A DNA stretch of 47,737 bases. It comes from Clostridia bacterium (GTDB taxonomy: Bacteria > Bacillota > Clostridia > Christensenellales > Borkfalkiaceae). The position numbers were made by a program, and so were the translations under genes. Of the stretch, positions 30,700 through 47,737 are shown piece by piece (position 1 is the first letter of the stretch; each line of letters starts with the position of its first letter). The DNA is taken from NCBI GenBank assembly GCA_017471945.1, contig JAFURH010000077.1:1-47737 (forward strand). The letters run 5' to 3'. The notes below the pieces were generated by a model, which worked only from the letters and a program-made list of their open reading frames with translations, searched no databases and was not told the DNA's origin.

Positions 30700-30993
30700 A
30701 TGGAACAAAAAAGAGAGGGTTATTCTTTACGGAAAGGTCGGCTAATACGTTTTCTAAAAAAGAATAATTTTACATTGGAGGATATAGCTGCAAAGATAGA
30801 AATAAGCGAAAGAGAATTGCAAGAGCGTTTAGACGATTGGGATTATTTTAACGCAGAAGAAATAGAACGGCTTGTAGAATTTGTCGGTGCAAAAGCGGCG
30901 TATGATATAATTTTCTTTCCTACACGGAAAGAAAAGGAAGAAATTAAGAAAAAAGCATTTAGGAGAAATAGGTGGGCAAAACGAAAAGAGTAA
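30700..30993 (+). CDS. Small HTH-like protein
   Basis: A 97-aa basic protein. Residues about 15-65 (IRFLKKNNFTLEDIAAKIEI, ERELQERLDDW) have the layout of an XRE-type helix-turn-helix. The Lys/Arg-rich tail overlaps the next gene by 22 nt. Probably a DNA-binding accessory protein of the element. Confidence 0.55.
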   Translation: MEQKREGYSLRKGRLIRFLKKNNFTLEDIAAKIEISERELQERLDDWDYFNAEEIERLVEFVGAKAAYDIIFFPTRKEKEEIKKKAFRRNRWAKRKE

Positions 30994-33071
30994 GAGATAG
31001 AAATTCGGCAATACAAGAAATGTTGTCGGACGGCGATAAATTGAGGAATTTCTACCGTTTTACGGCGCAAAATCCGCATATAAATCTTCACGACGCTTGT
31101 CAGATCGTCATCAAACGTCCTGATGCTTCGATATGCTTTTCTTATGAGGAATGGAACGGCGAAGCTTTGGAACGCCGAATTATCGCAGGGAGAAAGGGAA
31201 TACCGTACTACGACGAAAACGGGAATAAGAAATTCGTATTCGACGTGCGGGATACGCACGGCAAGGAAAAATATAAACGCAGTATTTATCCTATGAGTAG
31301 GCTTTTGAAAGGCTTACGTGCTTTGACAGGTGCGGAAGTAAACGAAGTACAGGGCGATTATCGAAAAATAAAGGTTGGGGTTGTGAACTATCTCAATCAG
31401 AACGAACTGTTTTCGGAAGAAGACGAAGAAAGAAACCGCTTAATTATAGAGGGTATCACCTACTCTTTATATTGTAAGACAGGTTTTCCGAAAAATACGG
31501 GTATTTCCTTGCGCGGTATGCCGTATGGCTTATATGAAAACGCGGAATTATTTAAGGAAATGTATATCGACGCGGAAAATTTGTTTGATTCCATAGACGA
31601 AGCATATCGAGAATCGTTAAAGGAAATACCCGTCATAGACGATACGGAAGAAGAAACGGTATCGGACGAGCCCACTATACCCGTAAAGATTGTTGAAGAA
31701 GAAAAGCAACCTTTTCCTAAAAAGGAAAAATCAACAAACGCTTTATATAATTCATATATGGACGCGCAGGAAGAATATCCAAATGCCATCGTGATTATTC
31801 GTCTTGGCGATTTTTACGAGATAATGGGTGAGAACGCAAAAGTAATTGCGGACGAGCTTGACTTGACGTTGACGGGTCGCGACGTAGGACTTGAAGAGCG
31901 TGTACCAATGGTTGGATTTCCGTATCACGTTGCGGATCAATATATAGAAAAAATTCTTAAAAAGCATTCTATTGTGGTGGTAGAGCAAGGCGAAGAACCG
32001 AAATACATACTTTCGCATAAGCAGGTACGAGATGAAAGCGAAAAACCGCGCTTGATCGAGTTATCGGACGAGGACGCCACAGAGCTTGGCAACGCATTCG
32101 ATGACGGAGAACTTACTGACGTTTATGACGGAGAGTATGACGAAGAAGCTTCGAACGAGCAGGAGGGCAATCAACAGCTACAAGAGAAAAAGGGTAAATC
32201 GATTAAAGAACGTAAACGCAAAGAAAAATCGCAAATATCGTTGTTTGATTTTATGGAACAGGCGGAAACGAAAGAGGCAAGCTATAAAGATTTGCAAGAG
32301 CAAATGATAAAACGGCAGTTAAAGCGCGGTAGCGGTTTTCAACACGGGAAGTTCCGTATTTATGAGAAGTATCAAACAAATCCGTCTATCAATGAGTTTG
32401 CCGAGTTGTTGAAAAAGGAATACGGCGTAGGCGGTTATGGTAGCTATGGAGATAGTCAAAGTCACGATGCAAAAGGCATTAAAATGTCGTGGCGAAAAGA
32501 AGAAACCCGCGATTTGATAGCCGATGCCTTCTTAAAATGGAACGAAGTAGCAGTACGCGTGGCAGATTTAATAGACGACGGAGATTATCTAACGGAAGAA
32601 GAAAAAGAAAAATATAATTGGTATTTGGAGGAAAGAAACGAGCAAATAAAATCCGTTGAAACAGTCAATACCACGCAAACGGATAAAGAGAACCCTGAAC
32701 TCACGACCCTAAACGAAATCGGATTAGACCAAACGCCGTTTGGCGGGGCAAAATCGAAGTTCAGAAGCAATATCGAAGCGATACGTTTAATGGAACGGCT
32801 TTACGTAGAAAACCGTGCGCCGACGAATATGGAAAAGCTCACGCTTGCAAAATACGTAGGCTGGGGCGGACTTGCGAAAGCCTTTGATGAAAAGGACGAG
32901 AATTGGCAAAAGGAATACAAAGAACTCAAAGAAACGCTTTCAACGGACGATTACGCAAACGCAAGAGCAAGCGTATTGAGCGCGTACTATACGCCGAAAG
33001 AAGTGATAGAAGGTATGTATTCCGCGCTTGAACAGTTTGGCGTTAGGCGAAATGTTCCTTTCCCACCGTGA
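30972..33071 (+). pseudogene. LtrC/helicase-methylase-type conjugation protein with MutS domain I, 3'-truncated
   Basis: The frame gives 699 aa in four parts. Residues 1-200 resemble the LtrC/ArdC-like N-terminus of Firmicutes element proteins (NFYRFTAQNPHINLHDACQI). Residues about 255-350 are a MutS domain I (VIIRLGDFYEIMGENAKVIA, VPMVGFPYHVADQYI), keeping the mismatch-contacting Phe-x-Glu. Residues about 450-540 hold a KMSWRKEETRDLIADAFLKW segment. From about 600 starts the adenine-methylase/SNF2-helicase region (KYVGWGGLAKAFDEKD, SAYYTPKEVIEGMYSALEQF). Homology then stops at about 33040, just before the methylase motif I, and the frame ends eight codons later inside VirD4 sequence. Full-length relatives are usually 2000 aa or more. 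Start ATG/GTG at 30972 overlaps the preceding gene. Confidence 0.7.
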
Positions 33072-34578
33072 TGCGAGAACGCGAATACAGGAATTAAAAG
33101 ACGAGATATACGAAAACGCAATGGATTTGGTATATACGCTTTGTCCGGTACAAAATCACGAACAGCCGAATTGGGAAATGGGTGCGCGAAACTTAATCTT
33201 TGGGTTAGTGCTTGCGCTTTGCGAAGATTGTCTAAAAGGCAAAATTGAAGAAAAACAGTTATTGCTTTTCAACGTGTATCACAATATCACGAAGTATTGT
33301 TCGGAAGACACGACGGCGCTTAAAAAGTATTTATTGGAAGGACGCGACGAATTTTCAAAAGTACGTGGGCTTGTGAATACGGTACTGATTACGACGGAAA
33401 AGACTTTGACGAGCTATCTTTCGGAAGTGAACAGCTATATGCAACAGCTCGCAGACGACGGGATATTATCCTTAACGAGTGAGAACGATTTGGATATAGT
33501 GAATATGGACGAAGCAGCGAACGCGGTATTTATTATCGTGCCGGACGAACGTTTCACAAGACACCGTTTCGTAACGTTGTTTATTACGCAGATGTATAAA
33601 GAGCTTGTAGAAAAAGCGAATTTGAATTTGCGTAAGTCTCAAACGGAAACGGCGATATTGAAACGGAATACGTATTTTGTTTTAGATGAGTTCGGAAATT
33701 TGCCGAAGTTTGAAAATATGGAAGGAATGGTAACGGTAGCGCGTTCGCGTGGGATTCGATTCCTGTTCGTATTACAAAGTTTTTCGCAACTGACGGTCAA
33801 ATACGGGCGCGACATAGGCGACGTTATCAAAACGAATTGCAACGTGAAAATCTTTATCGGTACGGACGATAGCGACACGCGAAAAGAATTTTCCGAGCTA
33901 TGCGGACAAAAGAAGATTAAGAGCTTTTCCGTAAACACGAGCGTGGAACATTCCGCAAGTTCCACGACGGGCGCAGGAAATCAACCGCTTATTACGGTAG
34001 GTATGTTGGAACGGCTAAACGGCGACGAAAAGGGCGACGCGATTGTTTCGGTACGTGGTTATGAGCCGATATGGACGAAGTTCACGCCGTCGTATAAGCT
34101 ACAACATATCTATTTCAAAGACGGAAAAGCGGATTTATCCAAGCGCGAAGCCGTACTGTTTAAGAAGCAAGATTACGTATTCGATATATACAAAGAGCAA
34201 TTAGAAAGCGAAGAAGAAAAGATCCGCGATAAGTGTTTAGACGATCTCGAAGAATTGGAAAAAGAGGACGAAAAACAAGAGCGAGAGCAAGAGCAAGAGC
34301 GAGCAACGCATATAAGAGAACTACGTGCGAAGTGGGACAGTATTGTAAATGATATAGAACAAAAACTTCGTAAATTCGTCGTTTACCTTGACGGCAGGGA
34401 TAGCCGAGTAGTGCTTGCGGCAAAGCTCGAAAACAAAGCGACTTTATTGTATACGCTAATGGATAATTATTCGCAATCAACGGCAGAGCGGATGATGGGA
34501 ATGGCGGATTATATTTCGTCAAGATTGCTTTTGTTAGATAAAATACAAAAGCAAGCAGACAAAGCAAAAGGAGGATAG
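33052..34578 (+). pseudogene. VirD4/TraG coupling protein, 5'-truncated
   Basis: This frame carries the C-terminal two thirds of a VirD4-type coupling ATPase, the protein that feeds DNA into the secretion channel. Walker B and the following helix are clear (TYFVLDEFGNLPKFENM, ARSRGIRFLFVLQSFSQL), as is FIGTDDSDTRKEFSELCGQK. The N-terminal membrane segments and Walker A (GSGKS) are missing: VirD4-like sequence begins near 33045 directly against the methylase gene and in another frame. A start at ATG 33052 could produce a fragment of 508 aa, without ATP binding. It ends with a coiled, Glu/Lys-rich tail. Confidence 0.8.
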
Positions 34579-34581
34579 AAA

Positions 34582-36075
34582 TTGAAAAAAAATAAAAACA
34601 AACGACTAATGCTAATCGGCGCGGCGGCGCTGATGGCAATGACAATGCCGTTATTGGTAGGAAACGTATCGGCAAGCGCAGACGAGTGTGAACACGACTA
34701 CCAAACGGCGCAAGTAGAAGCAACCTGCACGGAACGGGGCTATATGCTATATGCGTGTACGGTTTGTGGGGACAGTTATCAAGATAACTACACGCAAGAA
34801 AAAGGGCACGGGTTTACAGACGTAATTGTAGAACCTACTTGTACGCATAAAGGTTATACGACGCATTTTTGTCAGGATTGCGGGTACGAATATACGGATA
34901 CGTATTTGGACGCGACGGGGCATACCTACGACGACGTAATCGTAGAGCCGACGTGCGTAGAACAAGGATATACGACGCATACGTGTATTGAGTGTAATTA
35001 TTTCTACGTGGATAGCGTAGTGCAAGCCAACGGACACGATTTTGAAGAAGAAATCAAGGAAGTGAATTGTATGGAAGGCGGTTATACGACGTACACTTGC
35101 AAGGTCTGTGAGTACACGTATCAAGATAACGTAGTAGAAGCAAAGGGACATACCCATCAAGAAAGCGTAGTAAAACCGACGTGCGTATCCTACGGGTTTA
35201 CGGTACATTTATGCGCGGATTGTGGGGACAGGTACGTGACGAACTATGAAAAACCCGTTGGGCATAGTTTTGAAGATACCGTATTTGAAGCAACGCTGGA
35301 AAGTATTGGATATACCAAACATCAATGTACGGTATGCGATTACAGTTATCTTTCCGATTTCGTAACGAGTGGGGATAACGGCTATACGCAAATCCCCGAC
35401 GAACCGACGGAAGAAGAACCGAGCGAACCTGTTCAGCCCGACACCCCCGTTGAGCCTGAAGAACCCGATACGCCGAGCGAACCTACCGAGCCTGAAACGC
35501 CCGTAGAGCCTGAACAGCCTGACGAGCCGAGCGAAGATACGGAACAGCACGAGTATATATTTAGTCCGTCGTTTGACGAAGAAAGCAAACTTTTGACGAT
35601 TGCGTACGCTTGCGAGTGTGGAGAGATTTATGCAAGGAACTTGCAGTTGTTTATTACGGATAGCGCGGAGAATACAACGGTGGAAGTGGTAAACGGCAAC
35701 GCGAGTATTGATTTTACGGAAAGAAAAGACGATTACACGATTATTGCAATCGACGAAACGGGAACGGTAGTCGGCGTGTTTGGCGTTGAGAATAAGGAAA
35801 ACGTAGAAACGGTACTTCCCGATGTTCCCGACGAGCCGAATGATACGGACAAGCCCGAACAACCGCAAGAGCCGCAAGAACCAAGTGAACCTAACGAGCC
35901 TACAACGCCCGAAACGGACGATACGGAAAGCGAAGAAAAGCAAGAGAATAACGTATTGCTTCCCGTGCTTTTAGGCGTACTTGTCGTGCTTGGCGTAGGC
36001 GGTGTAATAACCTTTATTTTCATTAAGAGAAACAAAAAAAATAATAAAAATAAAACGAAGAAAGGAGAAAAATAA
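34582..36075 (+). CDS. Membrane-anchored surface protein with six Cys-Cys-His repeats
   Basis: TTG start 7 nt after AAGGAGG. The 497-aa protein has a signal peptide (cut near VSASAD). Six repeats of about 38 residues follow (about 35-265), pattern C-x4-GY-x4-C-x2-C-x3-Y...GH, for example PTCTHKGYTTHFCQDCGYEY. The sixth has lost its first Cys and its His. Each full repeat offers three Cys and one His, enough to bind zinc. A Pro/Glu/Thr-rich stalk (about 270-320), a beta domain, a second stalk, one membrane helix (VLLPVLLGVLVVLGVGGVIT) and a Lys-rich tail complete it. No LPXTG motif. The repeats recur in the protein at 42160, so both probably act in mating-cell contact. Confidence 0.8.
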   Translation: MKKNKNKRLMLIGAAALMAMTMPLLVGNVSASADECEHDYQTAQVEATCTERGYMLYACTVCGDSYQDNYTQEKGHGFTDVIVEPTCTHKGYTTHFCQDCGYEYTDTYLDATGHTYDDVIVEPTCVEQGYTTHTCIECNYFYVDSVVQANGHDFEEEIKEVNCMEGGYTTYTCKVCEYTYQDNVVEAKGHTHQESVVKPTCVSYGFTVHLCADCGDRYVTNYEKPVGHSFEDTVFEATLESIGYTKHQCTVCDYSYLSDFVTSGDNGYTQIPDEPTEEEPSEPVQPDTPVEPEEPDTPSEPTEPETPVEPEQPDEPSEDTEQHEYIFSPSFDEESKLLTIAYACECGEIYARNLQLFITDSAENTTVEVVNGNASIDFTERKDDYTIIAIDETGTVVGVFGVENKENVETVLPDVPDEPNDTDKPEQPQEPQEPSEPNEPTTPETDDTESEEKQENNVLLPVLLGVLVVLGVGGVITFIFIKRNKKNNKNKTKKGEK

Positions 36076-36077
36076 TT

Positions 36078-36398
36078 ATGACAAATTTATTAGCAACCAC
36101 CTTTAACGATAGCTTACAAGGCATCGTAACGAAGCTCAACGAGCTTATGAACAGTTTTTGGATTTACATTGTACTTGCGATGGCGGCAGTCGTTGTAGTA
36201 TGGGGCGCGTATATCGGGATCAAAGTAGCAATCGCGCATAGAAACGAAGATAAAATCAACGCAAGAGATATGGTGAAAAACCTTATTATCGGCATCGTGA
36301 TTATGTTCGTAATCGCAGTCGGCGCACCGCTTCTTATCGAAGGCTTGTCGGCTTGGGTTGGTACGAGTTCTGCTGCGGCAGTCGTACCTACGGTATAA
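36078..36398 (+). CDS. Maff2-family small membrane protein, copy 1
   Basis: A 106-aa protein with two membrane helices (FWIYIVLAMAAVVVVWGAYI and LIIGIVIMFVIAVGAPLLIE) around a short charged loop (AHRNEDKINARDM). Maff2 proteins lie next to VirB6 and VirB4 genes in Firmicutes conjugative elements and have the size and plan of VirB2/TrbC-type pilin subunits; that role is an inference. Starts behind AAAGGAG, 2 nt after the surface protein. Confidence 0.85.
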   Translation: MTNLLATTFNDSLQGIVTKLNELMNSFWIYIVLAMAAVVVVWGAYIGIKVAIAHRNEDKINARDMVKNLIIGIVIMFVIAVGAPLLIEGLSAWVGTSSAAAVVPTV

Positions 36399-36445: not shown

Positions 36446-37843
36446 TTAAGCAAACAAATCGTTTATAGTAATTAATGTGATGTTGTGTTTTGAGGCTTCT
36501 TCTTTAACAGCCTGTGTAAAGCCACTTTTTGAGAAGAGATAGTAATACTTTTCAGAAACGTTCTTAAACAATGCGCTTGCATCAATGAGGTCATTTAATT
36601 CGGATAAGTCGAATAACTCATTTTTGAATTTACATTCGCAGAAAATACCTTTATTCCCATCAATACCGATTATATCAATATCATCTTGTTTCTTTTTAAC
36701 GGGGTTGTTGCCCCACCATTTGCCGAACCCATTAGGGATAAATGGCAGTTTGTCATTTCGAGCTTGATTGATCATATATTCGCGGCAAATATCTTCAAAG
36801 ACGAGTCCCATATAATCGGAAAGGGAATTGGAAATGCTTTCGGCGAGTTTACGTTCACCGAGAAGATTGATTTTGTTTTCATTAGGAAAGACAAAACGGT
36901 ACCAAAACTTGAAGTAGTTATCCTTGATAAGATAAATGCTTTTCTTTGAGCCGTCTTTTTCTCCGTAGGGCACGGATTTTATAATGATACGAAGTTCTTT
37001 TAAGGTGTCGATATATTTAGAAACTTTTGTCGTTTCTTCATATACTTTACCTGAAATTTCACCGATTTTTGTCGCTCCATCAGACACGGACAAAAGAATA
37101 GAATTGTAGAAGAGTGGCTCACGTAATTCCATTCTAAGTAGGTTCATCGGTTCTCTCCGCATAACGGACATAGGCGACAATAACCCTTTTTCAATGTTTT
37201 CCGTGACGGAATATTTATCCGAAAAACTTAAAAGATAAAGTGGAATACCTCCTAAAATGCCGTAAGTAATCACTCTGTCGATATTAGACATTTTGGGATA
37301 GAAGTCTTTGGTTATTGTATAATCAAAAGGAAGCAACTCGTATTCGTGAGTTGCTCGTCCGTGAAGCGGGGAAGAAGAACCCATTACGTCGTTAACCATA
37401 AAGGAAACACTGCTACCGCATAAAATAAGCAGCAGATTAGACATATTTTTCCATTTATGGTCAATGACAGTCTGTAAAGCACTTTTAATGGACGGATCTT
37501 CCTTTGCAATATACGGAAACTCGTCAATAATGATAACGATTTTTTGATTGGAATCGTCCCTTTCAATCAAGTCGGTAAGAAATTCAAAAATCGGTTTCCA
37601 TTCCTTGAACTGCGGAACAAAAGGGCAATGAAAGTATTCGCAAACGGTTTTTACGAAATCGCTTTGATTAAGCGGATTATTTTTCTCTTGTCCGGTGAAG
37701 AAAATACAGCGATGTTTTTCAGAAAAGGTTGTGAGCAAAGTAGATTTGCCTACACGTCTACGCCCATAAAAGTTTAGGAACTCAAAGTTAGTGGAATTAT
37801 ACAGTTCTTCTAACAAGGACATTTCTTTTTGACGACCAATCAT
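36446..37843 (-). CDS. AAA ATPase with C-terminal DUF234 domain
   Basis: A 465-aa protein: Walker A GRRRVGKST (residues 27-35), Walker B IVIIIDEFPYI, a sensor segment LLILCGSSVSFM, then a winged-helix part (about 255-330) and a C-terminal DUF234 nuclease-like domain with DIDIIGIDGNKGIFCECKFK (the D...ECK pattern of PD-(D/E)XK nucleases). Such proteins are common on mobile DNA in bacteria and archaea and their role is not settled. It stands in reverse between the two Maff2 copies, with its own promoter and terminator, so it looks like an inserted cargo unit. ATG 37843, 8 nt after AAGGATGG, is preferred to GTG 37849. Confidence 0.9.
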   Translation of the reverse strand: MIGRQKEMSLLEELYNSTNFEFLNFYGRRRVGKSTLLTTFSEKHRCIFFTGQEKNNPLNQSDFVKTVCEYFHCPFVPQFKEWKPIFEFLTDLIERDDSNQKIVIIIDEFPYIAKEDPSIKSALQTVIDHKWKNMSNLLLILCGSSVSFMVNDVMGSSSPLHGRATHEYELLPFDYTITKDFYPKMSNIDRVITYGILGGIPLYLLSFSDKYSVTENIEKGLLSPMSVMRREPMNLLRMELREPLFYNSILLSVSDGATKIGEISGKVYEETTKVSKYIDTLKELRIIIKSVPYGEKDGSKKSIYLIKDNYFKFWYRFVFPNENKINLLGERKLAESISNSLSDYMGLVFEDICREYMINQARNDKLPFIPNGFGKWWGNNPVKKKQDDIDIIGIDGNKGIFCECKFKNELFDLSELNDLIDASALFKNVSEKYYYLFSKSGFTQAVKEEASKHNITLITINDLFA

Positions 37844-37881
37844 ATACACACCATCCTTAATTTATAATCTTGATTATTATA

Positions 37882-37952: not shown

Positions 37953-38252
37953 ATGAATAATTTATTTTTAGCGGCTACGCTGGATGGTAGCCTTGCACAA
38001 ATCGTGGAAAAGCTGAACGTACTTATGGACAGTTTTTGGATGTATATCGTGCTTGCGCTTGCGGCGGTAATCGTAGTGTGGGGCGCGTATATCGGCATCA
38101 AGATTGCGATTGCGCATAAGAACGAAGAAAAAATCAACGCTCGTGATATGGTGAAAAACCTTATTATCGGTATCGTAATTATTTTCGTCGTAGCGATGGG
38201 CGCACCGCTTTTGATTGAAGGCTTGTCGGCTTGGGTAGGTATCGGGGCATAA
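37953..38252 (+). CDS. Maff2-family small membrane protein, copy 2
   Basis: A 99-aa close paralogue of copy 1: the same two helices and the shared core INARDMVKNLIIGIVI and GAPLLIEGLSAWVG. It starts behind AAAAGGAG and continues the transfer operon after the ATPase gene. Two similar subunits could be used together, or one may be redundant. Confidence 0.85.
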   Translation: MNNLFLAATLDGSLAQIVEKLNVLMDSFWMYIVLALAAVIVVWGAYIGIKIAIAHKNEEKINARDMVKNLIIGIVIIFVVAMGAPLLIEGLSAWVGIGA

Positions 38253-38325: not shown

Positions 38326-39525
38326 ATGCTTATATTTTTTCAAGAACTTATAATGCTTATCTTCCTATGGCTTTTGCGGTTGATTGACGGGATTATGGAT
38401 ATATTTTCCGCAATGGCAGGTGTCACGGACGTGCGTATAAAAGGCGAAGACGTGAATATAATCGAGTTCCTCGTCGGGGATTCTACGGTAAGTACAATCT
38501 TTTGGTGTGTGTTCATTTTGGCGGTGGGATTAACTTGTATATTCGGGATCGTTGCCCTTGTCAAAAATATGATTGCCAATAATCGAAACGTATCGTCGAT
38601 AATCGGGAAAATAGGGCTTTCGTTGCTTGGCACAATGGCAATGCTAACGGTAGTTATCTTGGGAATCCTTATTTCTAATTCGATATTAACGCTTGTAGCG
38701 GAAATTTTCCAAATCGGGAACACAACGAAATTATCTAACGCCTTATTTAATGCGTGCGCAGGTAAATGGCTCAACGGCTACACGATAGCGGAAGTGGATA
38801 TAACGAGTTGTAGCGTTTCGGCTATTATGGGAGATTATGCTACAACGGCGTTTGGAATATGGCCCACGTCTTGGAAATGCAACGGAATCGTAAATCCCAA
38901 TTCGTTTTTGTATTTGCCCGCAATGATTGCTTCGATTGCCATAATGATTGCGATGGTGGTTGCGATTATAAACCTTGCCAAGCGCGTGTATGAAATAGTG
39001 CTTATGTATATCGTAATGCCCGTATCTATGGCAACGCTACCTTTGGACGACGGGGCAAGATTTAAGGTTTGGCGAGAAACGTTCGTGACGAAAATTCTTC
39101 TTGCCTACGGTACGGTGTTTTCGGTAAATATATACGTATTGCTTTTACCGATCGTTTCAAAAATGCAAGTAGACGGGGTCGGTGAGTTTGGAAACGCTAT
39201 GTTCCTAATTTTTATGATCATCGGCGGAGCAATGGTAATCCCCGCAGGGCAAAACCTGTTTGCAAGATTATTCGGACAAGCGGACGATATGCACGCGGGC
39301 GGAAGTTTTTTGCACAGCGCGTTCTACGGCGGGCGAATTATGGGTGCGTTGACGTTTGGCGCGGCGTATAAGCTGATTAGAAGTGGCGTTGGGGTAGGCA
39401 AAAGTATTTCAAGAAAAGTAAAAAAAGAAAATAACGACGAAAACGGCGAAACCGAAGCAAAGAACAACTCGGATAAGTTCTCGGAAACTCAGGCTTTGAA
39501 AACGTTAGAAGGAGGTAGTGAATAA
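38326..39525 (+). CDS. VirB6/TrbL-like polytopic membrane protein
   Basis: A 399-aa protein with about six to seven membrane helices (TIFWCVFILAVGLTCIFGIV, IGLSLLGTMAMLTVVILGIL, MIASIAIMIAMVVAIINLA and others), a Cys-containing extracellular loop, and a polar Asn/Glu-rich C-terminal tail. Position between Maff2 and VirB4 and the helix pattern mark the VirB6-type inner channel component of Firmicutes conjugative elements. The stop overlaps the virB4 start (TAATG). Confidence 0.8.
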   Translation: MLIFFQELIMLIFLWLLRLIDGIMDIFSAMAGVTDVRIKGEDVNIIEFLVGDSTVSTIFWCVFILAVGLTCIFGIVALVKNMIANNRNVSSIIGKIGLSLLGTMAMLTVVILGILISNSILTLVAEIFQIGNTTKLSNALFNACAGKWLNGYTIAEVDITSCSVSAIMGDYATTAFGIWPTSWKCNGIVNPNSFLYLPAMIASIAIMIAMVVAIINLAKRVYEIVLMYIVMPVSMATLPLDDGARFKVWRETFVTKILLAYGTVFSVNIYVLLLPIVSKMQVDGVGEFGNAMFLIFMIIGGAMVIPAGQNLFARLFGQADDMHAGGSFLHSAFYGGRIMGALTFGAAYKLIRSGVGVGKSISRKVKKENNDENGETEAKNNSDKFSETQALKTLEGGSE

Positions 39526-42170
39526 TGCGTATTATTCCTAAAAAAATCAAAGTAAAGAATACGGTTTGGAAATGCTATTCTATGCCAGATATTCTCGTTG
39601 CGCTGGTCGTGTTTTCGATTATATTCATTTCGATAACGGCAGGGAATTGGGGCGTAGCAATCTTTATGGGTTTCATTTCAGTGATTATGTTTATGCCGAC
39701 GTCAGATGGGATTTTTTATTCGTGTATTTTTGAGAACTTGAAATTCCTATTTTCCAAAAAGAAATATAGCAAAGACGCGATAAAAGAAAAGGCGCGTATT
39801 GATACGCTTATCGGGCTGAAAGGTATTAAAGAGAACGGCTTATTGGAATACGCAAACGGGTATTTCGGGCGCGTGATAAAGGTAGGACAAAAGAACTTCG
39901 GGATAGAGGACGTTGTTCAGCAAAACATTGATATCGGCTATTTTGCCAACGCTTTCAAGCTTTTGGACGGAACGCAAACGGCGGATATCGTGAAGATAGA
40001 CCGTCCCGTAAACCTTGACGAATTTTCTTATGAGGTGTTTGAACGGCTAACGGACGTAAAAGACGGTTTGGACGAGGAAGAAATCAAGAAAATTAAGATA
40101 AATCTTTTACAAGAAAGGATAGACAAAATAGACAGGCTGAACAATATCCGCAAACAATATATATCCGATTATTATATCGTGGTGTATGGGAAGAGTGAAC
40201 TCGATCTTGAAAACAACGCTATCAATATCGCTTCTGAAATCAATAAATGCGGGCTTGAAACGAAGATTTTAGCGCGCAGGGATACGGCGGTGTTCTTAAA
40301 GTACAGCTATTCCCGTAATTTTGACGAACGGGAAGTGAACAAGGTGGAAGATACTGCGCTTTTAGACTGGGTAAAGCCGAACGAGATAGAGTTTAAAGCT
40401 AATTGCTATGTGATAGACGGCACGAAAGCGACGGTATTGACGATTGCGGATTATCCTTTGCGGGTAAAGAACGCTTGGGGTGCAGACCTTTTCAATATTC
40501 CGAACACAAAAGTCGTTATGCACGTAAAGCCCGTAGATAGGTATAAGGCGATTAAGCGCATAGATAAGGTAATCGGGGAAATGGAAACCAAACAAATCCT
40601 TTCGGAAAAGGCAAGTGAAGCGAATAGCGCGGAAACGCATAGGGCAACGATGCACGCGCTCTTGGATAGCTTGCAAACGGAAAACGAATGGCTTTTGGAC
40701 GTCACCTTGACGGTGACGGCGTATAACTACTTGGAAGATCCGAATTACAAGAAAAAAGTACGCCGTTCAATGCTCACGGGTAATTTCAAACCGTCTATGC
40801 TATACGGGTTGCAGGTGGAAGGATTTAAGAGCGCAAGCATTTCTCCCGTATCTACGCTTTCTAACTTTGAGCGCGGAATAAACAGCTCGTCACTTGCGGC
40901 GGTGTTCCCGTTTGTGAGAACGTTCGTTATGGATAAGGGCGGATATATGCTCGGCGAGAATAAGAATAACCGTTATCCGTTTATTTTCAACCTTTGGAAA
41001 CGCGGGAATTTGTATCAAAACTCTAACGGGTTTGTAATTGGCAAGTCGGGTAGTGGGAAATCGTATTTCTTGAAAAATTTAATTCTTAACGAGTGGGCGA
41101 ACAATACGAGAATTATCGTATTAGATCCCGAAGCGGAATATTTGAATTTAACGAGGTCTCTTTACGGGAATATCCTTGACGTAGGGAATGCGAAAGAGGG
41201 AAGAATCAATCCTTTCCATATTTATAAAGTGTTAACGGAAGACGGTTCGGCTGCAGACCCGATTATTACTTTTAATACGCATTTGAAAATGTTGGAATCG
41301 TTTTTTAAGATTGTTTTTGTCGGAGCTTCGGTAGACGTTATTGAGCTTATCAATAACTTGGCGGTGGAAACGTATGAACGAAAAGGAATTACGGAGACGA
41401 CGGACTGTACGGATTTTTCGCCCGAACAGTTCCCGATTTTTTCGGATATGCTGGAAACGCTCAAAGTAAAGGATAAAGAACAAATGGACGCATTAACGCT
41501 TCGGGATATGCGAACGGCAGAGCTGTATTTACAAAAATTCGTCAACGGTCGGTATAGCGATATTTGGAACGCGCCGTCCACGCTACAAGTAGATGCGGAT
41601 TTAATAGATTTCAACTTTCAGTCGCTCTTTGCGAATAAGAACAATACCGTTGCAAACGCGCAAATGCTTTTGGTGTTCCGCTTTATCGAACAGGAAATTA
41701 TCAATGCCAGAGAGTTAAACAAGAACGGTAAAAATCTTCATACAATGATCGTTTGTGACGAAGCGCATTTGTTTATCGACGCGAAATTCCCGATTGCGCT
41801 TGACTTTTTCTTCTCAATGTCAAAGCGTATCCGAAAATACGGCGGGAGCTTTATTCCCGCAACGCAAAATATAGCGGATTGGAACGCGAACGAAGAATTG
41901 CGCGGCAAGACGAGCGCGATTATCAAAAACAGTCAGTACACGTTTATTTTTAAGCTGTCTGCACCTGATATGAAAGACGTATTAGACGTGTATAAGGTCG
42001 GGGAGAGTTTTAACAACGACGAACAAAGAATGATAATTTCAGCGGGAACGGGGCAGGCGTTCTTTATCGGCTCAACGGAGCTTCGAGCTTGTGTGAGGAT
42101 TATTGCGGGGGATTACGCAAAACGGCTTTTTGATGAAAATAAAAGAAAGGAGGAGAACAATGAAGCTTAA
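39525..42170 (+). CDS. virB4: VirB4-type conjugation ATPase
   Basis: An 881-aa ATPase, full length for the family. Residues 1-70 hold a membrane-proximal region with hydrophobic helices (PrgI-like, LVALVVFSIIFISI), suggesting a fused VirB3-type segment. The CagE/TrbE/VirB4 N-terminal domain follows, then Walker A GKSGSGKS (506-513), Walker B VCDEAHLF (Asp745, Glu746) and FIPATQNIADW. It powers channel and pilus assembly. The start overlaps the preceding stop by one base, and its 3' end overlaps the next gene by 11 bp. It appears intact. Confidence 0.93.
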   Translation: MRIIPKKIKVKNTVWKCYSMPDILVALVVFSIIFISITAGNWGVAIFMGFISVIMFMPTSDGIFYSCIFENLKFLFSKKKYSKDAIKEKARIDTLIGLKGIKENGLLEYANGYFGRVIKVGQKNFGIEDVVQQNIDIGYFANAFKLLDGTQTADIVKIDRPVNLDEFSYEVFERLTDVKDGLDEEEIKKIKINLLQERIDKIDRLNNIRKQYISDYYIVVYGKSELDLENNAINIASEINKCGLETKILARRDTAVFLKYSYSRNFDEREVNKVEDTALLDWVKPNEIEFKANCYVIDGTKATVLTIADYPLRVKNAWGADLFNIPNTKVVMHVKPVDRYKAIKRIDKVIGEMETKQILSEKASEANSAETHRATMHALLDSLQTENEWLLDVTLTVTAYNYLEDPNYKKKVRRSMLTGNFKPSMLYGLQVEGFKSASISPVSTLSNFERGINSSSLAAVFPFVRTFVMDKGGYMLGENKNNRYPFIFNLWKRGNLYQNSNGFVIGKSGSGKSYFLKNLILNEWANNTRIIVLDPEAEYLNLTRSLYGNILDVGNAKEGRINPFHIYKVLTEDGSAADPIITFNTHLKMLESFFKIVFVGASVDVIELINNLAVETYERKGITETTDCTDFSPEQFPIFSDMLETLKVKDKEQMDALTLRDMRTAELYLQKFVNGRYSDIWNAPSTLQVDADLIDFNFQSLFANKNNTVANAQMLLVFRFIEQEIINARELNKNGKNLHTMIVCDEAHLFIDAKFPIALDFFFSMSKRIRKYGGSFIPATQNIADWNANEELRGKTSAIIKNSQYTFIFKLSAPDMKDVLDVYKVGESFNNDEQRMIISAGTGQAFFIGSTELRACVRIIAGDYAKRLFDENKRKEENNEA

Positions 42171-45100
42171 AAAACTAAGCACGGTAAAAGGTATGTTGGC
42201 GATTGTATGCGGTATATTTGCGGTGATTGGACTTGTTTGTATAAATAAACCAGAAACGCACACGGCAAGTGCAAGTACGACGCCGAAATATACCTTGACA
42301 GTTTCGGGCGAGCAGTTAGCCGGTGGTTGGGGCGGTAGCTCAACCTATGAGCTTACGGACGTTACGACGGTGAAAGTACAAAAGGGTACGGGGAATAAAT
42401 ACGATACGGTTAGTTTCTATTTAAGCGGTAGCTCGGTATCAGGTACGGGGACGTTGGTAAATAACAGCTACATAACGTTTTCAGACGTGACGATAAGCGC
42501 GTCGGTTTCGGATTGTAATATAACTATTTATGGAAGTCTTGGCGACGAAGTCGCGACGGGAACTTCCTCGATCTCCACAACGCTTCCCGACGGGAAATAT
42601 AAAGTACGATTTATTATTTCCCGTTCAGGCGGTTCAGGTTATTCAATGTGGACGAGCATAGTAAACGTAGAGACGTATTTTTACGTAGACGCCAATAAAC
42701 CGACCATTGTCGGTGCGTCAACGTCTACAACGTATTATAAAAATACGGCGTTTACGGTTTCGGCAAGCGATAGCGGTAGCGGCGTGAGCGCTTTATATAT
42801 GAAAGCGCCGAGTGGAAGTTATACTTCCGTTGAAACGTCGAAAAGCTTTGGTGCGGGAAGTGCGAACGGGTTGTATTCGTTTTATGCTATAGATAACGCC
42901 GGGAATCAATCGGCGACCTATTACGTGTATTATGATAACGTAAAGCCGACGGGCGTTATCAAAAATTCGAGTGGCACAACGTTGACTTCCGCTTATACGA
43001 ACGGAGCGTTTTATTATACGGCAAGCGACGGCGGAAGCGGTATCAGTTATTTACAGTATATGACGCCGAGTTCGTCAAGTTGGGCGAGCTATACGTCTGG
43101 AACGACGATTACGCTGACGGCAACAAACGGAACGTATCAATTCCGCGCGGTGGATAAAGCGGGGAATATTTCCGATACGGCTACAATATATCTTGATGCG
43201 ACAAAACCCGTTGGCGTATTGTATAGCGGAGCGACGGCGGTAAGCACGGGAATAAAATCGACGGCGAGTTATATTAAATACGTTGGTTCGGACGCTTTGT
43301 CGGGAATAAAAACGGTGTACGTAAAGAAGCCTAACGCAAGTAGTTATACCACTTATACAAACGGCGCGCAACTGACGGCGAATGGGAGTTATTCGTTTTA
43401 CGGAGTAGATAATGCAGGAAATTCGTCGGACGTAATGACGATTTCGTTGGATAATACACCGCCCGTTTTAACGTTATCCAAAGGAGATTGGGGCGATACG
43501 TTAAGCGAAAGTTTTACGGTAAGCGCAACGGATAATATCGGCGGTACGAAGCTGTACTATAAAACGCCAAGTGGTTCGTTCGTGCAGTCAACGGGTACGA
43601 GTGTTAGTATTGCCAAAACACAGCCCGACGGAACGTATCAGTTTTATGCAACGGACGGCTATGGGAATACGTCGGCAACGTATTCGGTGGTATTGAGTAT
43701 TCCTGCGCCCGTAGCGCAGGTTGTGCAAGCAAGCGACGGCAATAAAATTTGCGTGATTTGGACGGATAATAATTGTTCGGCGTTGCTCGACGGAGAAAGC
43801 TACGTAAACGGCACGTGGATTAGCGCGGAGGGAGAGCATACGCTTGTGTTGACGAACGACGCAAACCGTTCTACTACGTACACTTTTTCGATTGAACATT
43901 ATTATATTGTTTATGGAGTAGTCGAGCCAAGCTGTACGAAAATGGGATATAAGACTTATAAGTGTGAGAATTGTCATCACAGCTATTACGCAAATTATAT
44001 AAGTGCGCTCGGTCATAATTACATTGTGACGAAAGAAGTGGAATCGACGTGTACGGAAGAGGGATATTCGGTTTACGTTTGTACCCGTTGCGAGGATTTT
44101 TATAACGACGATATCGTATCGGCAAACGGACACGATTTTAATTCTTGGTATATCGTAAAAGATTCCACGTGCATAGAAACGGGAACAAGGCGACGGGATT
44201 GTATCAGTTGCGGCGCGTATGAAACGGAAACGATAGAAGAAAAGGGACACGAGTATATTCCAATATTGACCGCGCCGACGTGTATTGAGCAAGGCTATAC
44301 GACGAACGTATGTAGTAGATGTGATAATACTTATACGGATAGCTATACGCAAGCAGTGGGGCATAATTACGTAGCAACCGTGACTGAACCGACTTGTACG
44401 GAACGGGGCTATACCACGCAAACGTGTTCTCGGTGCGGTGATAATTACGTAGAAGATTATGTGGACGCAAACGGACACGCATACGGAGCTTGGAGTATTG
44501 CAAGCGAAGCAACTTGTCTTGAAAACGGTTTACGGTATAAAACGTGTGGAACTTGCGGTTATCAATATAATGAATCAATCCCCGCGCTTGGGCACGGCTA
44601 CGAAGCGGAAGTGGTAGAGCCGACTTGCGTGGACAAAGGCTATACGACACATATTTGTATGCGTTGCGGAACGGGGTATAACGATACGTTCGTGGATGCA
44701 CTCGGGCACGATTATCAGCCGATGCAAGTAGAGCCTACTTGTACGGAAGAAGGGTACGTAGGACAATGCTGTTCCCGTTGTTCGGATACGTATAAAACGC
44801 AAATTTTGAAAGCGAACGGACACGATTACGTGGAAACGTACGTGGAAGTGAGCTGCACGGAAGATGGTTGCGTTTTGCATATTTGTTTGACTTGTGGGTA
44901 CGAATATAAAACGGATATTATAAAATCAAGCGGACATTCTTTGGCAACGCAAGTATTGCTTGCTTCCACGTGCGAAGAAAAAGGCGAAAGATATTACGGG
45001 TGCAGTAAATGTGAATATGAAAGAATCGACGAAATTCCTGCGCGTGGGCATAGTTATGAACTTACGGAAGAAAAAAATTCGGAGGGAGTGATTACAAGAT

Positions 45101-45405
45101 TATATATTTGTTCTATTTGTACTGATTCTTATACGCAAGATATGGGCGTGCAGTATGAAAAGGTATCCAACTACGTGGAATATCTTTTCGACAAGTACAG
45201 CCCGTATATGATGTGGGTATTCTTAGCTACAGCGGGCGTATGGTCGATCGGAATGGGTATTGCTATTATAATCGCCCACAAGAACGAGGATAAAGCAAAA
45301 GCAAAGAAAATGCTTGTAAACTATGGCATCGGGCTAATAATTATCTTTGGACTTTTAGTCGCTGCGCCGTATCTTGCGCGCGGAATCGCCGCGTTAGTGA
45401 GCTAA
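42160..45405 (+). CDS. Giant surface protein with Ig-like and Cys-Cys-His repeats and a Maff2-like membrane end
   Basis: ATG 42160 stands 6 nt after GGAGG. The 1081-aa product has a signal peptide (about 1-38) and a beta N-terminal module. About five Ig-like repeats of 85 residues follow (about 170-560), each with GxYxFYAxDNAGN-type signatures. Ten Cys-Cys-His repeats come next (about 590-980), for example PTCTERGYTTQTCSRCGDNY, as in the protein at 34582. The last 75 residues have two membrane helices around AHKNEDKAKAKKML and then GIGLIIIFGLLVAAPYLARG, matching both Maff2 proteins in sequence and layout. A pilin-like subunit thus seems to carry a large adhesive ectodomain. Role in donor-recipient attachment is an inference. 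Confidence 0.8.
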   Translation: MKLKKLSTVKGMLAIVCGIFAVIGLVCINKPETHTASASTTPKYTLTVSGEQLAGGWGGSSTYELTDVTTVKVQKGTGNKYDTVSFYLSGSSVSGTGTLVNNSYITFSDVTISASVSDCNITIYGSLGDEVATGTSSISTTLPDGKYKVRFIISRSGGSGYSMWTSIVNVETYFYVDANKPTIVGASTSTTYYKNTAFTVSASDSGSGVSALYMKAPSGSYTSVETSKSFGAGSANGLYSFYAIDNAGNQSATYYVYYDNVKPTGVIKNSSGTTLTSAYTNGAFYYTASDGGSGISYLQYMTPSSSSWASYTSGTTITLTATNGTYQFRAVDKAGNISDTATIYLDATKPVGVLYSGATAVSTGIKSTASYIKYVGSDALSGIKTVYVKKPNASSYTTYTNGAQLTANGSYSFYGVDNAGNSSDVMTISLDNTPPVLTLSKGDWGDTLSESFTVSATDNIGGTKLYYKTPSGSFVQSTGTSVSIAKTQPDGTYQFYATDGYGNTSATYSVVLSIPAPVAQVVQASDGNKICVIWTDNNCSALLDGESYVNGTWISAEGEHTLVLTNDANRSTTYTFSIEHYYIVYGVVEPSCTKMGYKTYKCENCHHSYYANYISALGHNYIVTKEVESTCTEEGYSVYVCTRCEDFYNDDIVSANGHDFNSWYIVKDSTCIETGTRRRDCISCGAYETETIEEKGHEYIPILTAPTCIEQGYTTNVCSRCDNTYTDSYTQAVGHNYVATVTEPTCTERGYTTQTCSRCGDNYVEDYVDANGHAYGAWSIASEATCLENGLRYKTCGTCGYQYNESIPALGHGYEAEVVEPTCVDKGYTTHICMRCGTGYNDTFVDALGHDYQPMQVEPTCTEEGYVGQCCSRCSDTYKTQILKANGHDYVETYVEVSCTEDGCVLHICLTCGYEYKTDIIKSSGHSLATQVLLASTCEEKGERYYGCSKCEYERIDEIPARGHSYELTEEKNSEGVITRLYICSICTDSYTQDMGVQYEKVSNYVEYLFDKYSPYMMWVFLATAGVWSIGMGIAIIIAHKNEDKAKAKKMLVNYGIGLIIIFGLLVAAPYLARGIAALVS

Positions 45406-45535: not shown

Positions 45536-45901
45536 ATGAAAACAGCGGAACTGAAAAGGAAAGCAAGAGAGAACGAAGGTATGACCGTTAAAGAAATCAA
45601 AGCGTATGAAAAGCTTGTTAAGCCGAAAGTACACGTGTACGGAAAATACGGAACGCTCGCCAAGAAATACTTGCAAGAGTATAATATCGTTAAGTATATG
45701 GCGTTGGCGGGGGATTTGCCCGAATACCTGCACGGTATTGACGAGCAAGCGGACGAAATGTATAAGGTTATGTACGAAAAACTGTCTAAATCTGAACAGT
45801 TCCAAAAGACGGGAGTGTTTTTACACGATTTGCGCGTGGAAGAAGAAATCAAACGTCGGATTGAAGAAGAAATCTTGAGTCAACTTGTGTATGTAAGTTA
45901 A
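45536..45901 (+). CDS. TnpV-family protein
   Basis: A 121-aa charged, helical protein. YGKYGTLAKKYLQEYNIVKY, LHGIDEQADEMYKVM and the end EEEILSQLVYV match the pattern of TnpV-type accessory proteins of Clostridial transposons and conjugative elements, whose role is not settled. It begins behind AAAGGAG, directly under the operator-bearing promoter at 45451. Confidence 0.7.
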   Translation: MKTAELKRKARENEGMTVKEIKAYEKLVKPKVHVYGKYGTLAKKYLQEYNIVKYMALAGDLPEYLHGIDEQADEMYKVMYEKLSKSEQFQKTGVFLHDLRVEEEIKRRIEEEILSQLVYVS

Positions 45902-46400: not shown

Positions 46401-46589
46401 ATGAATTTACCGAGAATGAGAAGTATTAGGCAAGCGTTGGAAATGATAAAGGAAGAAGACCCGAATAGTTGTTTGACGAGTTATTATATTCGAGATTTGT
46501 GCAAGAAAAATAAAGTTCGGCATATTAAATCGGGAACGAAAATAATGGTTAATTACGATGACTTGCTAAAATTTATTAGCGAAAAATAA
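46401..46589 (+). CDS. xis: Excisionase-type DNA-binding protein
   Basis: A 62-aa protein with the winged-helix layout of small excisionases (MRSIRQALEMIKEED, LTSYYIRDLCKKNKVRHIKS, MVNYDDLLKFISEK), placed 17 bp before the integrase gene. It would bend att DNA and favour excision. Confidence 0.75.
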   Translation: MNLPRMRSIRQALEMIKEEDPNSCLTSYYIRDLCKKNKVRHIKSGTKIMVNYDDLLKFISEK

Positions 46590-46606
46590 GTAAGGAGAAT
46601 TAAATA

Positions 46607-47737
46607 ATGGCTACGATAGTTGAACGGGAAAGAGTAGATGGGACAAAGGCTTATATGATACAGGTAAGTGTAAATATGGTTGGTAGCAAAAAAACGATAA
46701 GAAAATCAAAAACAGTAGTGTTGCCGTCTAACTTGTCAAAAAGACAAAGAGAAAAGGAATTGGAGCGAATTTCTGTTGAGTACGAAAAAGAAATGAAATC
46801 AATGTACGGTGTTGCGAACTATGTTTATGGAACGCCAGATACAACATTTGAAGAATTTTCGCAAAAATGGTTGGAGAGGATAAAAAGGGATAAATCGGCA
46901 AGCCATTATGCAAACAGTAAATTGGCGTTGAAAGATATCAATTCCGCAATCGGTGGGTATAAATTAAAAGATATTACGCCTAGCATTTTGCAATATTTTT
47001 ATGATAGACTTGATGAAAAGAAATTAGAAATCGTAAAAGTGAAAGTAAAAGAGAAACGATTAAACGAGTTATTGAGTAAATATAAAGTTGCAAGATATAA
47101 AATAGCCAAAGCACTCGGGGTAAGCGATGTGAGTTTAAAGGCTATGTTGGAAGGAAAAAACGTTAGATTGGAAAGTGCAGAAAAAGTCGCAAAAAATACA
47201 GGAAAAAAGTTGGACGAATTGTTTGATATTCAAATTATTTATCAAAAGTACGCATATCAAACAATTCGAAAGATAAAAGTGACGGTTCAAGGGATTTTAA
47301 CATATGCTAAGAAGTTGAGGTTAATAGAGCATAATTTCGCTACGAGAGAATATCTTGATTATCCCGAACAAATAAAAAATATTCCCGAACATTTATCGGA
47401 AGAAAATTCGTTAGCGTTTTATAGGTTTTTGGTTGAGTGTAAAGATATAAAAAAAAGGACGATAGCGTTAATCGTTCTTTTAACAGGGTTGCGACGTGGG
47501 GAAATTTGTGGGTTGGAATTATCCGATATAGATTTAAATAATCAAACGATAACCGTACGTCGTTCAAGAGTAGTGGTTAATGGGTTCGGCTTAATAGAAA
47601 AAGAGCCGAAAAATCAAACGTCGGTACGAACTTTTTCAATACCGAAAATTCTTGTGGACTGTTTGACCGAATATATTGTTTGGAGAGAAAATAAGAGAAA
47701 TGAACACGGAGATGCTTGGAAGGCAGGAAATAAATTG
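46607..47737 (+). CDS. int: Tyrosine integrase with inserted HTH domain, cut by the window edge
   Basis: ATG 46607 stands 9 nt after AAGGAG, and 377 codons are open to the window end. Residues 1-75 are an AP2-like arm-binding domain (VERERVDGTKAYMIQVSVN). The core-binding SAM-like domain starts at about 80 (TTFEEFSQKWLERIKRDKSA), is interrupted at about 147-207 by an XRE-type helix-turn-helix (VARYKIAKALGVSDVSLKAM, SAEKVAKNTGKKLDELF), and resumes with YAYQTIRKIKVTVQGILTYA. The catalytic domain opens with the first active-site arginine in LTGLRRGEICGLELSDIDL (about 292-310). The His-x-x-Arg and Tyr residues lie beyond the window. It would recombine the tRNA-Ser site. Confidence 0.92.
   Translation, partial: MATIVERERVDGTKAYMIQVSVNMVGSKKTIRKSKTVVLPSNLSKRQREKELERISVEYEKEMKSMYGVANYVYGTPDTTFEEFSQKWLERIKRDKSASHYANSKLALKDINSAIGGYKLKDITPSILQYFYDRLDEKKLEIVKVKVKEKRLNELLSKYKVARYKIAKALGVSDVSLKAMLEGKNVRLESAEKVAKNTGKKLDELFDIQIIYQKYAYQTIRKIKVTVQGILTYAKKLRLIEHNFATREYLDYPEQIKNIPEHLSEENSLAFYRFLVECKDIKKRTIALIVLLTGLRRGEICGLELSDIDLNNQTITVRRSRVVVNGFGLIEKEPKNQTSVRTFSIPKILVDCLTEYIVWRENKRNEHGDAWKAGNKL

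Follow-up and report, generated by a model that had tools for sequence, protein, structure and literature searches.

The 47,737-nucleotide contig JAFURH010000077.1 of a Clostridia bacterium (assembly GCA_017471945.1), referred to below in its whole length as the window, carries a mobile, conjugative element of gut Clostridia whose transfer operon encodes a fusion protein (42160-45405) of two dissimilar parts. A giant exported ectodomain with immunoglobulin (Ig)-like domains and cysteine repeats is joined to a two-helix C-terminus; these coordinates and this anatomy, proposed in a first-pass annotation of the sequence, were confirmed. The C-terminal module is related to small pilin-like proteins encoded separately in the same operon, and we consider, with moderate confidence and on the basis of sequence comparison, that the fusion is an adhesin tied to the type IV secretion system (T4SS) via a pilin-like subunit. 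Adhesion, topology, assembly and position of the protein are what we infer, and the hosts (metagenome-assembled genomes, MAGs, labelled Clostridia and the like) are assumed to be monoderm. The interpretation offered by the first-pass annotation, i.e., a Maff2 subunit placing an adhesin at the mating surface, is as a whole partly supported.

Architecture of the fusion protein

The ATG of the fusion gene overlaps the end of virB4, and the AGGAGG motif preceding it also lies within virB4 (Table 1), which suggests that the two genes are translationally coupled. The protein begins with a predicted signal peptide, whose cleavage site was read by eye without a predictor, followed by a beta domain and a string of Ig-like domains recognized by model NF047446 (84.8 bits; cut-off 40). 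The repeat region contains ten C-x9-C-x2-C-xn-GH repeats (residues 592-964) and a last Cys-x2-Cys hairpin without the His. In the structure model the tail forms a helical hairpin (residues 998-1041 and 1045-1080), the helices of which are joined by the Lys-rich loop HKNEDKAKAKK. The fusion protein had no match in PHROGs, and no VirB5 family was found among the family-model matches of the operon proteins; the structure comparison of the ectodomain was dominated by Ig-like domains. The proposal that recipients are gripped without sortase is upheld as far as the anchoring motif goes: no LPXTG-like motif occurs in the last 150 residues of 20 fused sequences, in a search that covered the motif and not the sortase genes themselves.

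Relationship of the tail to unfused pilins

The first-pass annotation had matched the last ~75 residues with two separate small proteins of the operon, and BLASTP bore this out: the tail shares 42% identity over 72 aa (E 6e-11) with the 99-aa protein encoded at 37953 and 45% over 53 aa (E 3e-14) with the 106-aa protein encoded at 36078. A profile built from 30 unfused pilins (13 from close and 17 from more distant elements) was run against 4651 sequences, i.e., 20 fused proteins plus the open reading frames (ORFs) of the window and of loci longer than 9 kb, some of them redundant. All 20 fused tails were detected (E 3e-11 to 1e-19; window protein E 7e-15), as they were with profiles built from the close or the distant set alone; the 20 tested sequences include a truncated one (L079) that does not count as a fusion. 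Among these targets every match longer than 160 aa at E≤10 had an ectodomain, or a remnant of one, ahead of the pilin module, and neither VirB6 nor the single-transmembrane (TM) surface proteins matched at this threshold. The similarity of the tail to the unfused pilins thus exceeds generic two-helix composition.

The identity of the module differs from that proposed earlier. Maff2 is a small two-helix protein of conjugative elements; its model (PF12750) had no match at E≤1 anywhere in the genome of the window, and the label was rejected. The relatives of the module are instead T4SS_pilin (PF18895) and the Mbov_0395 pilin-like family (NF045849), which match 22 and 23 of 24 module sequences, respectively, at E≤0.01. 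Pilins of two related elements exceed the curated cut-offs, one for both models (L032; PF18895 44.8 bits, NF045849 62.1 bits) and the other for NF045849 (L033; 42.6 bits, cut-off 40). The VirB6-like family model NF045889 also matches 21 of 24 pilin sequences (best E 3e-5), and pilin matches fall at positions ~48-122 of the NF045889 and NF045848 profiles; VirB6 may contain a pilin-like hairpin.

Recurrence in related elements

An intact, in-frame fusion of the repeats with the tail was found on 20 contigs including the window. Two of them (L075 and L077) come from one MAG, which leaves 19 sources, assuming that no genome was counted twice. Besides the window, the fusion-bearing loci originate from (i) MAG SIG396 of the same genus (L069), (ii) MAGs titled Clostridiales, Clostridia, Firmicutes or, once, Bacilli (L070-L075, L077 and L078), (iii) genomes of the order (nine loci: L110, L111, L113, L114, L115, L116, L118, L119 and L121), and (iv) an IMG/VR contig (L144). 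In L071, L072 and L073 the contig begins within the fusion gene. With intact frames on 20 contigs, chance or an assembly artefact was rejected as the origin of the fusion.

The expectation of the first-pass annotation that the fusion would stand next to virB4 in other elements also held: virB4 lies directly upstream in 17 of the 17 loci with a visible upstream region (counting L117 and L120, in which the fusion gene carries a stop, and excluding L076 and L079). In all 16 loci examined, a start codon with a Shine-Dalgarno core is placed within -19 to +18 relative to the stop of virB4. The virB4 gene of L075 is interrupted by a 623-aa ORF (L075:1204-3075).

Of the 396 genomes in the order sample, 12 contain the tail in an open frame of at least 480 aa (two of these 12 rows have an internal stop); a weak match in a 473-aa frame (E 3e-4) was also obtained. 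The only strong long-frame match in the phylum sample of 398 genomes was in the window's own genome; two others, in frames of 830 aa (E 1e-5) and 491 aa (E 1e-4), were weak. Most loci were retrieved via the pilin module itself, and these counts are not prevalence figures.

Several candidates were set aside. In genome G042 (L027/L079:3239-5668) an unrelated lipoprotein encoded next to chromosomal genes ends in the same tail, which at first sight suggested that the module moves freely. This case was ascribed to rearrangement or misassembly and not counted, because the tail begins in the middle of helix 1 and proteins resembling the lipoprotein ectodomain are present in 27 of the 57 genomes from the genus. 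A detached tail ahead of the same downstream genes in another MAG (L076:1667-1906) was dropped, and a 1160-aa frame of G022 proved, when its sequence was read, to contain no pilin fusion. Butyrivibrio plasmid pCY186 (L143, 8869-9711) encodes a protein with the same repeats and a single TM segment, without the pilin module; this Cys-Cys-Cys-His repeat protein lies near a gene annotated as an ATPase of the type II secretion/type IV pilus/T4SS family.

Conservation and constraint

In an alignment of 16 complete fusions, 578-1102 aa long, the C-terminal 91 residues are gap-free with a mean pairwise identity of 73.2%, and the tail is the most conserved part of the protein. Identity falls to 48.2% in the Ig part (31% gaps) and 45.9% in the repeat part (38% gaps), and residues 1-180 are the least conserved (24.7%). 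Within eight shared elements, the core of the fused tail is 75.3% identical vs. 41.0% for the neighbouring repeat protein's single-TM anchor region. The ratio of nonsynonymous to synonymous substitution rates (dN/dS) of the tail has a median of 0.086 and a maximum of 0.165 in the 18 of 120 pairs with 0<dS<3. The constraint on the tail is stronger than that on an ordinary membrane anchor, and a plain anchor would not need it.

Origin of the fusion

In a tree of pilin modules (52 rows, 99 columns; the bootstrap had not settled and the program flagged long branches), 19 fused tails form one clade (100/99), with the unfused pilins of this element family as neighbours. Three pilins with a different N-terminal part of ~120-190 residues form a clade of their own inside the unfused group. 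Two of them are encoded by adjacent genes (L077:3-797 and L077:800-1630; 264 and 276 aa), the first of which runs off the contig start, and each carries ~175-190 additional N-terminal residues; the third (L031:14553-15185; 210 aa) is a remnant and shows no signal peptide. A second ectodomain-pilin fusion has therefore arisen independently. Its ectodomain gave one weak match, in a 1116-aa frame of G409.

The two parts of the fusion occur as neighbouring genes elsewhere. A single-TM surface ORF (375-2728 aa, some incomplete) stands directly upstream of the pilin gene, at a gap of 15-243 bp, in 19 of 23 more distant loci, two of which are near-copies within one genome; L134, L137, L140 and L037 have no such ORF. 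In one case (L030:8231-8534, minus strand) the stop of the surface-protein gene is followed five codons later by the pilin gene in the same frame. The 1436-aa protein of L033 aligns with residues 5-587 of the fusion protein (35% identity, E 5e-59). Since the parts are adjacent genes in distant elements and a single protein here, a joint function may be postulated (the Rosetta-stone argument).

Proposed role and alternative explanations

We propose that the protein is a surface adhesin serving conjugation, its foot being paralogous to the VirB2-like pilin of the element itself. The N-terminus would be exported by Sec and cleaved by signal peptidase, and the signal peptide would place the ectodomain outside the cell. 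The tail would enter the membrane as a hairpin, its two ends lying outside and its Lys-rich loop facing the cytoplasm; such an N-out, C-out arrangement is expected because the ectodomain is predicted to be exported and the loop fits the cytoplasm. According to the positive-inside rule basic loops are cytoplasmic, and VirB2 pilins are N-out, C-out; the exported N-terminal ectodomain in turn hints at an N-out pilin module. The tail would then take its place between unfused pilins or else on the platform formed by VirB6, and the stalk of Ig domains and repeats would project from the mouth of the transfer apparatus or the tip of a short filament, so that the variable N-terminal domain could reach the recipient. 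The conserved covalent link of stalk and pilin, starting at the virB4 stop, points to the likely partner. A more specific version, which we put forward tentatively and consider rather doubtful, is that VirB2 and VirB5 are merged, with a few stalked pilins starting on the VirB6 platform and, once pushed outwards, forming the tip or crown of a filament whose shaft consists of plain pilins. If so, donors of the Gram-positive type would possess adhesive conjugative pili, which are thought to be absent from them.

A number of observations weigh against a tail that works as a pilin. The isolated window tail scores below the gathering score of PF18895 (24.6-24.7 vs. 26.6 bits, E 2.6e-5 to 2.7e-5; 18.3 bits for the whole fusion protein) and well below the cut-off of NF045849 (22.7 vs. 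40 bits); the unfused pilins of the window are also under these cut-offs, slightly for PF18895 and well under for NF045849. Pilin-conserved residues are retained only modestly (10 of 16 vs. 18 of 62 columns, p 0.019, the columns not being independent), and retention relative to the close pilin set is not significant (p 0.22). No conjugation pilin was among the matches of the hairpin structure comparison, which was uninformative, or of the solved-structure profile search, a missing match to which we attach no weight. The unfused pilins are more strongly constrained than the tail (dN/dS 0.047; 11 pairs). Two of 22 fusion genes (L117 and L120) carry one in-frame stop each, to be attributed to sequence error, decay or a secreted form; that of L120 sits immediately ahead of the pilin tail. 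The clade of fused tails stands on a long stem (1.88 changes per column), so that the tails may have taken on a role away from the machine, and the second surface protein of the operon, built of the same repeats, manages with a plain single-TM anchor.

The last two points would be readily understood if the tail were a duplicated pilin, strongly diverged before it settled, that has been reused as the two-helix anchor of an ordinary surface adhesin without becoming part of the secretion machine; the surface proteins encoded beside the pilin gene in the 19 distant loci are likewise held by a plain single-TM segment. A tail that served only as an anchor would be expected to drift as other anchors do, however, and this one is gap-free, has kept its loop and both helices, and far exceeds in conservation the single-TM anchors from the eight elements compared above, while a second ectodomain-pilin fusion arose separately; we therefore hold this explanation to be rather unlikely. 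The link between pilin and adhesin is strengthened by the neighbouring genes of those 19 of 23 loci, together with a constraint on the tail above that of an ordinary anchor.

The small membrane proteins could also be VirB3-like parts of the inner-membrane complex, an explanation that overlaps with ours, as it keeps the link between adhesin and machine and dispenses with the filament. VirB3 is likewise a small two-helix protein, and the N-terminus of the window VirB4 has no PrgI/VirB3 match. Features similar to VirB3 are ascribed to mycoplasma CDS13 and CDS15 in a review (PMC12857230). The pilin models nevertheless match most module sequences, several divergent paralogues per element suit pilin arrays better, and PrgI matches the VirB4 N-terminus of 4 of 16 relatives (best E 7.5e-5), so that the place of VirB3 may be occupied already; this assignment seems unlikely to us. 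Finally, the fusion protein might serve surface exclusion of other donors, or be a host-directed surface protein, rather than bind recipients. Exclusion proteins of conjugative elements are often surface or membrane proteins, and a variable N-terminal domain is expected for any kind of specificity. Adhesion agrees better with a large Ig stalk of modular build and with the link to the gene of the transfer ATPase, and no exclusion family was found among the family-model matches of the operon proteins, so that we judge a role of this kind very unlikely.

The transfer operon and the state of the element

The operon comprises the genes listed in Table 1. Its VirB6-like protein also passes the cut-off of NF045889 (94.4 vs. 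70 bits). VirD4 lacks the first ~237 residues of its relatives, including the P-loop seen in that of L031, and its gene overlaps the end of a MutS_I-domain ORF (30972-33071), which we take to be LtrC-like. The relaxase-like neighbour of L031 and L113 (in L113 under the cut-offs: PF03432 23.3 vs. 24.6 bits, NF041499 65 vs. 150 bits) has no counterpart in the window. The left end of the element is rearranged or misassembled, and because of the truncated VirD4 the window copy may be transfer-defective.

Table 1. Features of the transfer region and of the fusion protein, in window coordinates
Feature	Position	Strand	Remarks
VirD4 coupling ATPase, N-terminally truncated	33028..34578	+	relatives align only from residue ~238
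Second surface protein, Cys-Cys-Cys-His repeats, single-TM anchor	34582..36075	+	between virD4 and the pilin genes
Unfused pilin-like protein 1, 106 aa	36078..36398	+	PF18895 25.0 bits (cut-off 26.6); NF045849 25.0 bits (cut-off 40)
Unfused pilin-like protein 2, 99 aa	37953..38252	+	PF18895 25.6 bits; NF045849 23.1 bits
VirB6/TrbL-like membrane protein	38326..39525	+	NF045848 182.3 bits (cut-off 90)
VirB4 ATPase	39525..42170	+	NF045975 (Mbov_0397 family) 562.9 bits, E 1e-168, slightly under cut-off 590
AGGAGG 5' of ATG 42160	42148..42153	+	within virB4 end
Fusion protein, 1081 aa	42160..45405	+	signal peptide, beta domain, Ig-like string, Cys-Cys-Cys-His repeats, pilin-like tail
Predicted signal peptide, residues 1-39	42160..42276	+	hydrophobic stretch 11-29; helix 8-27 in model
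N-terminal beta domain, residues 40-177	42277..42690	+	structure model
String of Ig-like beta-sandwich domains, residues ~178-515	42691..43704	+	model, structure comparison, NF047446
Repeat region, residues 592-990	43933..45129	+	ten repeats and final hairpin
Pilin-like tail, residues 998-1081	45151..45402	+	helix, short Lys-rich loop, helix
Excisionase-like ORF and integrase, right end of element	46401..47737	+	named from sequence reading and position; integrase runs off contig

A TnpV-like gene (45536-45901; PF14198 43.9 bits, cut-off 27) follows the fusion gene, and its homologues are found downstream of the fusion in many related loci. The two pilin genes flank a DUF234/ATPase gene of opposite orientation (36446-37849, minus strand) that matches the PADLOC candidate defence model PDC-S27 (E 3e-66); a 95% identical copy occupies the equivalent place in L031, and a relative (54%) is present in L034. 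To the left of the element the window contains a glycan-use cluster (4848-28890) encoding a solute-binding protein, permeases, the glycoside hydrolases GH35 and GH95, a GH88-like protein, KduI and a DUF4838 protein.

Comparison with known systems

No description of a pilin-adhesin fusion was found in the literature at title and abstract level, with preprints and most subscription papers outside the scope of the search.

The closest parallels are (i) the VirB2-like pilins (PF18895, NF045849 and the VirB2 arrays of Patescibacteria; PMC12102498), which share with the module described here two helices with a basic loop, the gene order pilin, VirB6, VirB4 and the presence of several paralogues per element. 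The difference is that one paralogue here bears an exported N-terminal ectodomain of ~1000 residues and is located after virB4, and that its fused tail is under the curated cut-offs. The current model has VirB6 recruiting VirB2, while the tip, in contact with the recipient, is formed by VirB5 (PMC12624023). As in the case of (ii) the VirB5 pilus-tip adhesin of the VirB/Trw systems, the proposed recipient-contacting part would be coupled to pilin and VirB6; here it would be fused to the pilin subunit itself, and a pilin carrying its own stalk could take the place of VirB5. VirB5 is helical (PMC12624023), whereas the ectodomain of the fusion was modelled as Ig-like.

Large modular surface proteins encoded with transfer genes are also represented by (iii) PrgB of pCF10 and TIE of pLS20. 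PrgB is anchored by LPXTG and sortase (PMC12857230), in contrast to the pilin-like module of the fusion, and the mode of attachment of TIE has not been established (PMC8092201), whereas the anchor here is the pilin-like module. Lastly, (iv) the CDS14 lipoprotein of the mycoplasma integrative and conjugative element ICEA is an essential surface protein of an element that has a VirB6-like protein and VirB4 (PMC6030558, PMC12857230); CDS14 is a separate lipoprotein, unfused to the small membrane protein.

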